This document shows, piece by piece, positions 13,001 through 52,001 of a stretch of DNA of 64,000 nucleotides (position 1 is its first letter; each line of letters starts with the position of its first letter). Source of the stretch: Soonwooa buanensis (GTDB lineage: Bacteria > Bacteroidota > Bacteroidia > Flavobacteriales > Weeksellaceae); the NCBI RefSeq assembly GCF_900167905.1, contig NZ_FUYZ01000001.1:248001-312000 (forward strand), written 5' to 3'. The notes beneath the pieces are model-generated. The model was not told the origin of the DNA and searched no databases. It saw only the letters and a program-made list of their open reading frames with translations. The translations under genes were made by a program, and so were the position numbers.

Positions 13001-13113
13001 GGAGCTAATCCCGCTCTCAGCTCTATCTTTAGTGCGAGTCTCGGACGGCTCCGCTACGCTCCGCCGCCTCACCTCGCCCCAAAGGATGCCGCTTCCATCG
13101 GGGCTAGAGATAC
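13001..13113 (+). repeat. Mosaic intergenic repeat, copy 2
   Basis: Related to the inverted copy at 51880-52001 through most of its length: GGAGCTAATCCCGCT, then TCGGACGGCTCCGCT, CCGCCGCCTCAC, AAAGGATGCCG and GGGGCTAGAGAT appear in the same order. The GC-rich centre is a strong hairpin. It fills the gap between serA and the HAD gene. Confidence 0.7.
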
Positions 13114-42568: not shown

Positions 42569-43363
42569 ATGATAAAACTGAAACTTAAACATCTTGTAGC
42601 CTTCGGACTCTTGTGCAGCTTCTCAGCTAATGCACAATTGACGGACATTTTCAGGAAAAAAGATAGATTAGATAACCTAGAAGATTTTGACACACAAAAA
42701 TTCAGTTGGGGATTTTATCTTGCCGCGAATAATTTTGATTCAAAACTAGTTTTGGATCCGCATTACGGGATGAATGGTCAGCAAAGTCTTATCACCTCAA
42801 AACCTGGCTATAGCTTTGGTGCAGGACTTATTGGGAAGATGCGTCTTAACGAATATTTAGATCTTCGTATGGAACCTGGACTTCATTTTACTGAGAGAGA
42901 ATATACTTTTAACACGCAAAGTAATGATCAATATTCAGGTGGCACAACACAATTTCCAGCTTTTACGCCAATCGGTCTAACAGATGTTGACAAGGTAAAA
43001 AGAGTAAAATCGACCTACCTTGACATTCCTATTATGTTAGAAATCCACGGTGACAGATGGTACAATACGCGTCCTTACGCTGCTGGAGGTGTCAATTATT
43101 TAATGAATTTACAATCCAACGAAACCAGTACAGAAGACAACTCTCGAAATATTTTCCGTTCTACAACGCATAATTTTGGTTGGACTGCGGAGATTGGGAT
43201 GCAGATCTATTTCAGTCGTTTCAAACTGACGCCAGCTATACGTGGTACTTTCTTTATGAACAACGAAATTGTCGCAGATAATCCAGAAACGCCACCATAT
43301 TGGGCGGCTGGCATTTCGACCATGCAAACACATGCTTTTATGTTTGTTCTTAAATTTGAATAA
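42569..43363 (+). CDS. porT: PorT-like outer-membrane protein (T9SS)
   Basis: 264 residues from ATG 42569; a longer frame begins inside ubiE. Signal peptide (LVAFGLLCSFSANA) and a PorT-family beta-barrel: FSWGFYLAANNFDSKLVLD near 38 and GYSFGAGLIGKMRLNEYLDL near 78. PorT is needed for type IX secretion in Porphyromonas and Flavobacterium, and sitting next to ubiE is the arrangement I recall from Flavobacterium. It fits the T9SS cargo proteins in this window. Confidence 0.85.
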   Translation: MIKLKLKHLVAFGLLCSFSANAQLTDIFRKKDRLDNLEDFDTQKFSWGFYLAANNFDSKLVLDPHYGMNGQQSLITSKPGYSFGAGLIGKMRLNEYLDLRMEPGLHFTEREYTFNTQSNDQYSGGTTQFPAFTPIGLTDVDKVKRVKSTYLDIPIMLEIHGDRWYNTRPYAAGGVNYLMNLQSNETSTEDNSRNIFRSTTHNFGWTAEIGMQIYFSRFKLTPAIRGTFFMNNEIVADNPETPPYWAAGISTMQTHAFMFVLKFE

Positions 43364-43381: not shown

Positions 43382-43411
43382 TTGTTTTATTAAAAAACAT
43401 TTTTACATTTG
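43382..43411 (+). promoter_or_regulatory. trp operon promoter
   Basis: TTG (43382-43384), a 19-nt spacer, then TACATTTG (43404-43411): a full match to the Bacteroidota consensus. The leader-peptide ATG begins four nt after it. Confidence 0.85.
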
Positions 43412-43415
43412 CCTT

Positions 43416-43475
43416 ATGAATTTATCATTAAACAAAAACTGGTGGTGGTCTTCAAAATCTTGGTCAAGGTCTTGA
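43416..43475 (+). CDS. trpL: trp leader peptide
   Basis: A 19-residue frame that begins MNLSLNKN and contains three consecutive Trp codons (43440-43448) and a fourth Trp codon (43461-43463), ending at TGA 43473-43475. Trp-codon clusters this dense are the mark of ribosome-stalling attenuators. It lies between the trp promoter and the terminator, and its ATG starts four nt after the -7 box, so the RNA is probably leaderless. No Shine-Dalgarno sequence is visible. Confidence 0.9.
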   Translation: MNLSLNKNWWWSSKSWSRS

Positions 43476-43557
43476 AGCCATTCGGCTTTTTGTATAGTGT
43501 AGAAATAAAATATTAAATCACAAAGACTTTGACGAATCCGTTAAAGTCTTTTTTTGT
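43464..43557 (+). promoter_or_regulatory. trp attenuator: antiterminator and terminator
   Basis: The terminator has arms 43522-43534 and 43539-43551, with one G-T pair and a 4-nt loop, followed by a T-run. The alternative: leader segment 43464-43473 (TCAAGGTCTT, the last codons of the peptide) pairs with 43523-43532 (AAGACTTTGA), which is the 5' arm of the terminator. A ribosome stalled at the Trp codons leaves 43464-43473 free (readthrough); one that reaches the stop codon hides it (termination). A small hairpin (43475-43488) with a T-run may act as a pause site. Confidence 0.82.
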
Positions 43558-43597: not shown

Positions 43598-45019
43598 ATG
43601 AACATCAAACGCAATATCCAAATCAAAACATCGGTTAAATCTCAACTAGCTGATTTGTTTACGCCAATCGGAATTTATCTAAGACTTCGAGATCAATTTC
43701 GTGATACTATTCTATTAGAAAGTGCTGGCAATCAAAACAATGACAAAAACTATTCTTTCATTTGCATTAATGCTATCGCTGGTATAGAAATCCGAAATTA
43801 TAATGAAGCGGAACTAAAATTCCCTTTGGAAAATCCTTTCAAAGTACAGCTAACAAATGAAAAACTAACTAAAATACTTCAAGACTTTTCTCAAAGTTTT
43901 AACTGTGAAAAGCCAAATTTAGAAATTGGAACACAAGCCCAAGGACTTTTCGGATATACAAGTTATGATGCGATTCCGTTCTTTGAAAATATTAAGTTTA
44001 AAGAAAAAAGTGACGAAACTAAAATCCCACTTCTTCGTTACAGATTGTACCAATATGTCATCGCAATCAACCACCACAACGACGAAATGTACGTCATCGA
44101 AAATAAAATCGACGGTTTAAAATCCGAAATTTCTTTAGTCGAAAATATCATCAATCAGAAAAATGCACCAATTTTTCCTTTCGAAAAAATAGGTAAAGAA
44201 ACTTCAAATCTTATCGATCAAGATTATCTAGACTTGGTGGAACTTGCTAAAAAACACTGTTTCCGTGGCGATGTTTTTCAATTGGTGTTAAGCAGAAGAT
44301 TCGAGCAGCAATTTCGCGGTGACGAATTCAATGTTTATCGAGCTTTGCGGAATATTAATCCGTCGCCTTACTTATTTTTCTTCGACTATGGCGATTACAA
44401 ATTAATGGGATCAAGCCCAGAAAGTCAATTGATCATCAAAGATGGAAAAGCCATTATTCATCCTATTGCTGGGACTTTCAAGCGAACAGGAAATGTAGAA
44501 ACAGATCTACAATCGGCGGAAGAACTCAAAAAAGACCCGAAAGAAAATGCAGAACACACGATGTTGGTAGATTTGGCGCGCAATGATTTGAGTATTCATG
44601 GGAAAAACACAACAGTTTCAAAACTTAAAGAAATTCACTTCTTTTCGCATGTTATTCACATGGTTTCGGAAGTTGTTGCTGATGTTACAGAAAATCAAAA
44701 TCCTTACGAAATGATTGCAACAACCTTTCCACAAGGCACTTTGAGTGGCGCACCCAAATATCGCGCGATGCAGTTGATTGACGATTACGAAAAAACCTCG
44801 CGTAGTTTTTATGCAGGTTGCATTGGTTTTGTTGGCTTCGACGGTAGTTGCAATCAAGCGATTATGATTCGTACTTTTTTGAGCAAAGACAACCGACTGT
44901 ATTATCAAGCTGGCGCTGGTTTGGTGGCAAAATCAGTTCCAGAAAATGAACTCCAAGAAGTCAATAATAAACTAGGAGCACTCAAAAAAGCGATTTCAAA
45001 AGCAGAAAAAATGCATTAA
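43598..45019 (+). CDS. trpE: Anthranilate synthase component I
   Basis: 473 residues from ATG 43598; earlier TTG starts lie inside the terminator. The feedback-inhibition element LLES is near residue 45, and the chorismate-binding core (FRGDVFQLVLSRRF near 225, HPIAGTFKRTG near 290, GTLSGAPKYRAM near 385, and GCIGFVGFDG near 410) is intact. It makes anthranilate with TrpG. Confidence 0.96.
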   Translation: MNIKRNIQIKTSVKSQLADLFTPIGIYLRLRDQFRDTILLESAGNQNNDKNYSFICINAIAGIEIRNYNEAELKFPLENPFKVQLTNEKLTKILQDFSQSFNCEKPNLEIGTQAQGLFGYTSYDAIPFFENIKFKEKSDETKIPLLRYRLYQYVIAINHHNDEMYVIENKIDGLKSEISLVENIINQKNAPIFPFEKIGKETSNLIDQDYLDLVELAKKHCFRGDVFQLVLSRRFEQQFRGDEFNVYRALRNINPSPYLFFFDYGDYKLMGSSPESQLIIKDGKAIIHPIAGTFKRTGNVETDLQSAEELKKDPKENAEHTMLVDLARNDLSIHGKNTTVSKLKEIHFFSHVIHMVSEVVADVTENQNPYEMIATTFPQGTLSGAPKYRAMQLIDDYEKTSRSFYAGCIGFVGFDGSCNQAIMIRTFLSKDNRLYYQAGAGLVAKSVPENELQEVNNKLGALKKAISKAEKMH

Positions 45020-45108: not shown

Positions 45109-45182
45109 AATTCATGGATAATAATAAATCATCAAAATCGATATGTAGCAAATCGTAAAGCGAGGATTTGACAAAAACCAAA

Positions 45183-45227
45183 AGTCCCAACGGGACGACT
45201 TAACAAAGAATAGGATGAAATCCTATT
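45183..45227 (+). repeat. REP-like double hairpin, copy A
   Basis: Hairpin 1 GTCCC/GGGAC (45184-45188, 45192-45196) and hairpin 2 ATAGGAT/ATCCTAT (45210-45216, 45220-45226) separated by GACTTAACAAAGA. Confidence 0.85.
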
Positions 45228-45292
45228 TATAAAGAAAAGGATTATAAACAAAATAGAACAAAAACCAATTAAATTGGACATAAAATAAAAAA

Positions 45293-45336
45293 AGTCCCAA
45301 AGGGACGGCATAACAAAGAATAGGATGCAATCCTAT
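45293..45336 (+). repeat. REP-like double hairpin, copy B
   Basis: Same structure as copy A, same orientation: GTCCC/GGGAC (45294-45298, 45302-45306) and ATAGGAT/ATCCTAT (45320-45326, 45330-45336). Confidence 0.85.
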
Positions 45337-47000: not shown

Positions 47001-47086
47001 GGGCGTCTTTTCCGCCTTCCGTTCCCACTCTTTTTTGCCAAAGCTTTTGCCATGCAAAAAAAGGAGTTCCACTTAAGTCGGGACGC
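47001..47086 (+). repeat. Hairpin element, copy 2 (R5)
   Basis: Close relative of 45025-45108. The ends here are GCGTC (47003-47007) and GACGC (47082-47086), complementary to one another though different from copy 1, so the end-pairing is conserved by paired changes. It lies between trpD and trpC. Confidence 0.75.
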
Positions 47087-47119
47087 AGATTCTACAACAA
47101 TAGAAAATTAAGTAACAAA

Positions 47120-47916: not shown

Positions 47917-48594
47917 ATGCAATCTAAAATCTCAAATCTCGAATCTCAAATCCAATTGAAAGTTTGCGGATTGATAAAGCTTAACCAAATCCAAGAATTA
48001 GTTGCGATGGATGTTGATTTTTTGGGATTTATCTTTTACGAAAAATCGCCAAGATTTGTGTTAAATCATTTAGCTTTAGAACAAATTGCAGAAGTCAATC
48101 ATCAAGGAAAAGTCGGTGTATTTGTAAACGAAACAATAGAAGATATTATAAAAATAACTGGAAACGCAAAACTTAATTATATTCAATTGCATGGTGACGA
48201 AGACGAAAATTTTATTTCTGAATTAAAACAAAAACTTCCAGACCTTGTAAAAATCATCAAAGTAATTCGAGTTGGAAATGACATTTCGGAAGTCAAAAAA
48301 AAGTTAGCCGAAATCTCAAACCTCGAATATCAAATTTCAAATTTATTATTTGATACCGATTCCAAAGCTTTTGGCGGGACAGGAAAATCATTTGATTGGT
48401 CAATGTTGAACGAATTAGAAATTCCTTTGCCTTATTTTTTGAGTGGCGGCATTTCAGAAGATAATTTCCAACAATTAACAAGTTTAAAACAAAAACCTAT
48501 TGCCTTGGACATCAATTCAAAATTCGAAATCGAAGCTGGCAATAAAGATTTAGAAAAAATAAAAAACTTTATAACGCAAATAAAAAGTCCCTAA
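47917..48594 (+). CDS. trpF: Phosphoribosylanthranilate isomerase with repeat-derived segments
   Basis: 225 residues, TIM barrel: the catalytic Cys in KVCGLIK near 16, LDTDS-like FDTDSKAFGGTGKSFDW near 145 with the catalytic Asp, and SGGISEDNF near 175. The N terminus (MQSKISNLESQIQL) and an internal segment (EISNLEYQISNL near 132-143) are encoded by 7-bp-period repeat arrays, and the stop codon lies inside REP copy C, giving a C-terminal KSP. Catalytic residues are kept, so it is probably active. Confidence 0.93.
   Translation: MQSKISNLESQIQLKVCGLIKLNQIQELVAMDVDFLGFIFYEKSPRFVLNHLALEQIAEVNHQGKVGVFVNETIEDIIKITGNAKLNYIQLHGDEDENFISELKQKLPDLVKIIKVIRVGNDISEVKKKLAEISNLEYQISNLLFDTDSKAFGGTGKSFDWSMLNELEIPLPYFLSGGISEDNFQQLTSLKQKPIALDINSKFEIEAGNKDLEKIKNFITQIKSP
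47921..47955 (+). repeat. 7-bp tandem array inside trpF (N-terminal)
   Basis: AATCTAA, AATCTCA, AATCTCG, AATCTCA, AATCCAA: five units encoding residues 2-14 of TrpF. Confidence 0.85.
48312..48346 (+). repeat. 7-bp tandem array inside trpF (internal)
   Basis: AATCTCA, AACCTCG, AATATCA, AATTTCA, AATTTAT: five units in the same phase, encoding EISNLEYQISNL just before the catalytic DTDS segment. Confidence 0.8.
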
Positions 48595-48634
48595 GGGACG
48601 ACTTAAATCAGAATCAGATAAAATCCGATTTATA
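48586..48634 (+). repeat. REP-like double hairpin, copy C, overlaps trpF stop
   Basis: GTCCC/GGGAC (48587-48591, 48595-48599) and AATCAGAT/ATCCGATT (48612-48619, 48623-48630, one mismatch). The trpF stop codon TAA (48592-48594) is the loop of hairpin 1. Confidence 0.85.
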
Positions 48635-48669: not shown

Positions 48670-49122
48670 ATGTCACAGTCATTAGTCAAAAATTATGTTC
48701 ACATCATTTTTAGCACAAAGAATCGTGTGGATTTTATTGACGAAACAATAGAAAATGAATTGTTTTCGTATATAGCCAGCCTTTGCAAAGATTTCGAAAG
48801 TCAGGCCTTACAAATTGGTGGCACAGACAATCATATTCATATTTTATGTTTATTATCAAGAAAAATTGCATTGATGAAGCTTGTTCAAGAAGTAAAAGCG
48901 CATTCATCTAAATGGATAAAAACGAAAGCCGAAAAATATGAAAACTTCTTTTGGCAAGATGGTTACGCCGCATTTTCAGTAAGTCCAACTAATGTAAATA
49001 CAGTCATCAATTATATTAAAAACCAACGAGAGCATCATAAAGAATTTGGATTCAAAACCGAAATCCTAAATTATTATAAAAAATATCAAATCGAATACGA
49101 CGAAAAATACCTTTGGGATTAA
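48670..49122 (+). CDS. REP-associated tyrosine transposase (RAYT, IS200-like)
   Basis: 150 residues, the Y1_Tnp (IS200/TnpA_REP) fold. The HUH metal motif is DNHIHIL near residue 57, and the likely catalytic Tyr is in VINYIKNQ near 118. It nicks and joins single-stranded DNA through a Tyr-DNA link; RAYT members act on REP palindromes and are usually single-copy and domesticated. It lies inside the trp operon, and REP copies C and D bracket it in inverted orientation. Confidence 0.9.
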   Translation: MSQSLVKNYVHIIFSTKNRVDFIDETIENELFSYIASLCKDFESQALQIGGTDNHIHILCLLSRKIALMKLVQEVKAHSSKWIKTKAEKYENFFWQDGYAAFSVSPTNVNTVINYIKNQREHHKEFGFKTEILNYYKKYQIEYDEKYLWD

Positions 49123-50455: not shown

Positions 50456-51004
50456 ATGAAACAACTCAAAATAACAAAAGAAGAAATCCTCAACATCTTC
50501 GAATGGATTTCAGTAATTATTGTAGCGATTTACATGATTGGTTATGGCGTTGGAAAACCTTTACAATTTGGTGACATTTCTAGTTATACAAAACCAGTTA
50601 ATAAGCTAGATCCTATGACGTTGATGTGGGCTTTTTATTCCTATTCAAAACCTTATGTTATAATAATTGGCTTCTTCGAAATTTTGGGTGCGCTTCTTTT
50701 AGTAATCCCAAGAACACGACTAATTGGTGGTTTTTTGTTGACAGCTATTTTGACAAACATCATTTTGCAAGATTACTTTTTCGGAGTTCTCCAAGGCGCT
50801 TTAGCCAACGCTATTTTTTATCAATTGGTTATTTTATTTGTTTTTTATAGACATAGACACAAAATTATTAAAGCTTACATAGCCTTGGAAGGCAGATTCA
50901 CTTTCAAATTTAGATGGATTTATATTCCTGTTGCGGTCGTTGTCGCACTGAGTAACGAAGTCATTATGTACGCAATTAATCAACTATTAACACTTATTTT
51001 ATAA
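50456..51004 (+). CDS. DoxX-like membrane protein in the trp operon
   Basis: 182 residues with four or five membrane segments and the pattern MIGYGVGKPLQFGD near 24 and GFFEILGALLLVIPRTRLIG near 70, resembling DoxX/DUF417-type quinone-related membrane proteins. Its stop overlaps the trpA start by one nt, so it is translated together with trpA. No role in tryptophan synthesis is known; I infer only that it is coexpressed. Confidence 0.65.
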   Translation: MKQLKITKEEILNIFEWISVIIVAIYMIGYGVGKPLQFGDISSYTKPVNKLDPMTLMWAFYSYSKPYVIIIGFFEILGALLLVIPRTRLIGGFLLTAILTNIILQDYFFGVLQGALANAIFYQLVILFVFYRHRHKIIKAYIALEGRFTFKFRWIYIPVAVVVALSNEVIMYAINQLLTLIL

Positions 51005-51879: not shown

Positions 51880-52001
51880 AAATCCCCTAGCCCTGATTGA
51901 CACGGCATCCTTTTGGGTTGGCGTGAGGCGGCGGAGCGGAGCGGAGCCGTCCGAGCACCAACACAAAAGATATAGTGGAAAGCAGGTTCTCGGCTCCTAA
52001 G
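51880..52001 (-). repeat. Mosaic intergenic repeat, copy 3 (inverted)
   Basis: The reverse complement of this segment begins GGAGCCGAGAACCTGCTTTC and ends CAATCAGGGCTAGGGGATTT, as in copy 1, and its GC-rich core matches copy 2. The plus strand core (GAGGCGGCGGAGCGGAGC) can form a strong hairpin. It links the other two copies. Confidence 0.75.

Follow-up and report, generated by a model that had tools for sequence, protein, structure and literature searches.

A probable Trp-responsive attenuator with a predicted leaderless leader peptide upstream of trpE in Soonwooa buanensis

Results

Parts of the probable attenuator

We consider that the region 5′ of trpE in the trp operon of Soonwooa buanensis (Weeksellaceae) is probably a Trp-responsive, ribosome-mediated transcription attenuator, whose leader peptide would start at an AUG that lies at the 5′ end of the RNA or no more than about 3 nt from it. 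The window analysed here is a 64,000-nt stretch of DNA (positions 248,001 to 312,000 of contig NZ_FUYZ01000001.1), and all coordinates without a locus label are positions within it. The features of the locus are as follows.

43382..43384, + strand: TTG of the predicted promoter (−33 type), read directly, with a 19-nt spacer to the −7 box
43404..43411, + strand: −7 box TACATTTG, read directly (Bacteroidetes consensus TAHHTTTG, from PMC6847099)
43416..43475, + strand: Trp leader ORF MNLSLNKNWWWSSKSWSRS with its stop codon, read directly; predicted leaderless from the box spacing
43440..43448, + strand: Trp-Trp-Trp control codons, read directly; a fourth Trp codon is at 43461-43463
43421..43503, + strand: long hairpin whose 5′ strand includes the Trp codons, a prediction for the window sequence only
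43463..43473, + strand: antiterminator 5′ strand GTCAAGGTCTT, which falls in the last part of the leader ORF (duplex scans, covariation)
43523..43533, + strand: antiterminator 3′ strand AAGACTTTGAC, which is also the terminator 5′ arm (duplex scans, covariation)
43522..43557, + strand: intrinsic terminator, with a 13-bp stem at 43522-43551 (4 GC), a 4-nt loop at 43535-43538 and a T-run
43598..45019, + strand: trpE, first gene of the trp operon (best model TIGR00564, 407 bits, below the curated 517.7)

The earlier note, which had been made from the sequence, described a TTG-N19-TACATTTG promoter with an ATG 4 nt further on, and both can be read directly at that place, where CCTT separates the −7 box from the ATG at 43416. 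The leader has 19 codons, with TGG at codons 9, 10, 11 and 16 and TGA at 43473-43475; the short ORF with adjacent Trp codons upstream of the trp genes, likewise pointed out before, is thus present. Among shuffled upstream sequences, 0.35% have an exact box 4-8 nt 5′ of an ATG. In F. johnsoniae, transcription start sites fall 4-5 nt after TAHHTTTG (PMC6847099); a gap of 4-5 nt would therefore put the start on the AUG itself, and from this spacing we predict a transcript start at 43416-43417.

Between the leader and the first structural gene lies the 13-bp terminator with its T-run that had been reported before (stem −15.3 kcal/mol; a single hit, where shuffled sequence would yield 0.2). The end of the leader pairs with the 5′ arm of this terminator, 43463-43473 with 43523-43533, so that the coordinates first given for this pairing were right to within one base. 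The duplex has 11 pairs, one of them G-U, and a computed energy of −17.0 kcal/mol; a second scan gave −16.0 kcal/mol (z −5.1), equalled by none of 200 shuffles, and the attenuator region as a whole folds far better than shuffles (z −5.2). The antiterminator is predicted to be exclusive with the terminator, free when a ribosome stalls at the Trp codons and covered when it reaches the stop codon.

Computed folding of partial transcripts ending at 43545 gave the antiterminator a probability of 0.98 with a ribosome stalled at codon 9 and of 0.02 without it. At equilibrium, the terminator is favoured in the full-length RNA in every case, also when a ribosome is stalled (0.88-0.96), so the switch would depend on the order of folding during transcription. 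The hairpin at 43421-43503 is predicted to hide the antiterminator strand in untranslated RNA. As a conserved element in Weeksellaceae, however, a 1:2 hairpin was rejected (with 55.6% of cells paired, it did not exceed the slid controls), and for this reason the behaviour of the RNA without translation is uncertain.

Operon setting

The gene 5′ of the leader is porT/sprT, and a terminator scan of the interval between it and the leader found none. After trpE come a TrpG-type amidotransferase gene, trpD, trpC, trpF, an IS200-type transposase gene, trpB, a 182-aa ORF and trpA. We noted several further elements in this region. The IS200/IS605-type transposase gene (48670-49122) sits inside the operon, between trpF and trpB, and the 182-aa ORF (50456-51004) between trpB and trpA. 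The palindromic repeat AAGTCCCNNNGGGACG occurs three times, twice in the trpE-trpG gap (45182-45197 and 45292-45307) and once just 5′ of the transposase gene (48585-48600), an arrangement reminiscent of REP/RAYT pairs. Three Flavo-1 RNAs (RF01705, function unknown) lie in the window, at 47004-47089 (−), 51885-51993 (+) and 13003-13109 (−); one lies in the trpD-trpC interval and another 5′ of tyrS.

Conservation of the proposed switch among relatives

A TrpE search yielded 80 loci from Weeksellaceae, Capnocytophaga and Chitinophagaceae (81 with the window), the best named relatives being Epilithonimonas, Kaistella and Chryseobacterium. The earlier note had proposed looking for the same leader in related genomes, and a WW or WWW leader ORF is present within 400 nt 5′ of trpE in all 80. 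A terminator was found in 81 of 81 loci. In nearly all of them the antiterminator strand begins about 19-25 nt on from the first Trp codon and occupies about +19 to +35, counted from the first base of that codon; two Kaistella loci (L022 and L023) were mis-anchored by the script on an earlier TGGTGG. A shuffled-strand test of the antiterminator gave p ≤ 0.05 in 70 of the 81 loci. The strands themselves are of the GGTCT/AGACT type in Flavobacteriales and of the CGGGG/CCCCG type in Chitinophagaceae, at the same offset.

In an 18-row alignment, 83% of antiterminator cells are paired, against at most 53% when the strands are slid, and the covariation score exceeds that of 500 out of 500 shuffles; the terminator is paired in 97.9% of cells. 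A locus's own two antiterminator strands bind better than swapped ones (p 5e-5 over all loci, in Flavobacteriales and with one locus per lineage). The swap test within Chitinophagaceae alone (p 0.85) was uninformative, because the strands there are nearly invariant. Since scans in most Flavobacteriaceae and in other families found nothing significant, the antiterminator model is put forward for Weeksellaceae (with Capnocytophaga) and Chitinophagaceae. The Trp cluster in every relative and the covarying antiterminator bear out the original reading of the locus as a trp attenuator.

Conservation of the box spacing

How general is the short distance between promoter and start codon? Counting as a box any site with at least 5/6 letters matching, we found a −7 box 4-8 nt before the leader ATG in 66 of the 81 loci. 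Wherever an exact box has an ATG within 8 nt, that ATG is in frame with the Trp codons (51/51). In 33 of 55 loci a TTG precedes the −7 box at a spacing of exactly N19, where 0.84 would be expected per spacing in shuffles. Inspection by eye added three further loci (L050, L079 and L080) in which the start codon is a GTG, 4 nt downstream of an exact box, and three of Hydrotalea type whose box is degenerate and lies 7 nt 5′ of the ATG. About nine of the 81 loci lack a near box and look leadered, so leaderlessness appears to be favoured and not obligatory.

In three of the loci without a near box (L002, L012 and L019), an insert of about 48 nt separates the promoter-proximal start from the Trp ORF. 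The related L010 has it as well, with its first ATG still in frame. The inserts are ACGACAGTTNCATCTGTC-like and lie about 50-100 nt before the Trp codons; on the basis of their sequences, these four loci look like natural leadered variants of the Trp leader. A stretch loosely similar to the insert occurs in L030, L034 and L036.

In one-per-genus samples of other families the box-ATG spacing is mixed, and some genomes lack a WW leader; spacings of 4-10 nt occur, those of 4-6 nt in several Flavobacteriaceae-like genomes and one f5 genome, but also spacings of 16-32 nt elsewhere. A phylum-wide count found the pattern TTTG-N2-8-ATG-N12-30-TGG x3 in 217 of 392 genomes and a shifted-spacing control in 208 of 392. 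The count was uninformative, the pattern being too short and the real −33 TTTG being picked up by the control as well.

A His leader in the same family

The genome of S. buanensis also contains, 5′ of hisG (L125:1179-1235), a His leader MYNNQLHHYYHHTCTQAS that begins 19 nt after its −7 box and is followed by a hairpin and a T-run; from its sequence this is a probable his attenuator. Among Weeksellaceae, a His leader is present at 14 of 29 hisG loci, that is, in this genome and in 13 of the other 28. At the ten His loci with an exact box, the gap between box and ATG is 12-23 nt, mostly 16-19. The Trp and His gaps differ by a rank test (p 4e-8), in which the sequences are related and not independent. 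A pattern search for His leaders was dominated by chance matches and was set aside. Of other amino-acid genes, the DNA upstream of the homoserine dehydrogenase gene (thrA) contains no such leader, and ilvD (PF00920) was not found in the genome, whose assembly is 99.96% complete, which suggests branched-chain amino acid auxotrophy.

Discussion

A model for the trp switch

How might these parts work together? In our model, which assumes that the front edge of the ribosome lies 12 nt past the first base of the A-site codon, a ribosome with enough charged tRNA-Trp would pass the three Trp codons, reach the stop codon and cover 43463-43473. The 5′ arm of the terminator would then be free, the hairpin at 43522-43551 would form, and transcription would stop before trpE. 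If tRNA-Trp were short, the ribosome would wait at codons 9-11 with its front edge at about 43452-43458, leaving 43463-43473 free to pair with the emerging 43523-43533, and RNA polymerase would continue into trpE. For this to work, antitermination would have to be decided before the terminator has been fully transcribed, as it is in other attenuators.

Alternative explanations

Ribosome-mediated transcription attenuation is the best explanation of the locus, and the alternative that deserves most attention shares it, differing in the start of the RNA. Transcription might begin upstream, either from the box TAAATTTG at 43351 or by readthrough from the upstream gene, and the leader might be initiated internally, as in most Bacteroidetes genes. 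From the box at 43351-43358, the 5′ UTR would be some 50 nt long, readthrough would meet no terminator that we could find before the leader, and leadered messages are the rule in the group: 87% of F. johnsoniae leaders are longer than 10 nt (PMC6847099), and leaderless mRNAs make up only 5.5% in F. psychrophilum (PMC9723704). The roughly nine leadered-looking relatives also fit. However, the box at 43351 is located within the final codons of the upstream gene and has no TTG at a distance of about 19 nt on its 5′ side, whereas the box at 43404 has both promoter elements, a position conserved across genera and an ATG that is always in frame. We therefore regard a leadered transcript as unlikely here. 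The earlier note had argued that the leader leaves no room for a ribosome-binding site; the ATG is indeed 4 nt from the box, but the argument weighs less in Bacteroidetes, because their mRNAs lack Shine-Dalgarno sequences anyway (PMC6847099). Its proposal that the leader is probably translated from a 5′-terminal AUG gains support instead from the conserved box spacing.

A terminator with a competing structure would, taken alone, fit TRAP- or T-box-like attenuation just as well, with a Trp-binding protein or a tRNA as effector and the short ORF incidental. Yet every relative has an in-frame Trp run at a fixed distance from the antiterminator, and no T-box or other Rfam family reached the gathering threshold in the attenuator region, so that we consider such a mechanism very improbable. 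That the parts came together by chance and have no regulatory role is scarcely credible, being contradicted by the conservation in 80 relatives, the covariation and the fold z-score. Taken together, the locus is very probably a real trp attenuator and probably a leaderless one, as judged from sequence comparison.

Relation to known systems

Rfam contains a family at this place, RF01692 ('Bacteroid-trp'), an RNA of Bacteroidetes that its authors (Weinberg et al. 2010, PMC2864571) list as probably cis-regulatory. Over the full model the window reaches 23.2 bits, below the gathering threshold of 49, whereas Kaistella/Chryseobacterium-type relatives exceed it at the same leader position (L020, 51.5; L038, 52.6; L024, 49.8), as do the Flavobacteriaceae loci L128, L129, L133 and L139 (59.5-75.5 bits). 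The window leader is thus a divergent, sub-threshold member of the family. The model sits at the same position, 5′ of trpE; it starts about 20 nt ahead of the AUG and includes the TGGTGGTG Trp codons. It differs in its structure, a hairpin that spans the Trp codons and lacks conservation in Weeksellaceae, and in that, as seen here, it contains neither the antiterminator nor the predicted leaderless start of the window.

The likeness to Escherichia coli trpL lies in the tandem Trp codons and in the mutually exclusive antiterminator and terminator; that system has in addition a Shine-Dalgarno site and a 1:2 hairpin, neither of which is a conserved feature here. Contrary to the initial impression that a leaderless set-up had not been described for an attenuator, two such trp systems have been published. 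In Sinorhizobium meliloti, the ATG of the Trp leader is the very start of the trpL-trpE(G) RNA, and termination is Trp-dependent (PMC7298713); this is an alphaproteobacterium, in which the released RNA and peptide also act in trans. In Streptomyces lividans, trpL1-trpE has a leaderless 18-residue WWW leader, MFAHSTRNWWWTAHPAAH, and a terminator before trpE (PMC8079986), but this is an actinobacterium with a monocistronic trpE, in which leaderless transcripts are common (17%). Leaderless polycysteine attenuators in mycobacteria are mentioned as known (Canestrari 2020, as cited in PMC9031893). For amino-acid operons of F. psychrophilum, leader-peptide attenuation has been suggested (PMC9723704). 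In the literature searched, which covered few subscription papers and is thus weak evidence on this point, we found no description of leaderless attenuators in Bacteroidota.

The novelty is therefore smaller than was first claimed, because RF01692 covers the leader in relatives and leaderless trp attenuators have been published elsewhere. The new elements are the conserved and predicted leaderless arrangement in Bacteroidota, the contrast with the His leader and the assigned antiterminator. We tentatively propose that in Bacteroidota selection may keep the Trp leader, in contrast to the His leader of this family, at the RNA 5′ end, giving leaderless trp attenuation in a group in which most genes are leadered and free of Shine-Dalgarno sequences.

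With these results, a catalogued Bacteroid-trp RNA gains a concrete and testable switch, in which an antiterminator strand lies at a fixed distance from the Trp codons and covaries with its partner across two bacterial orders. Moreover, the Trp leaders at 4-8 nt from the box, compared with the His leaders at 12-23 nt and with the insert variants, offer a natural test of leaderless initiation in Bacteroidota.
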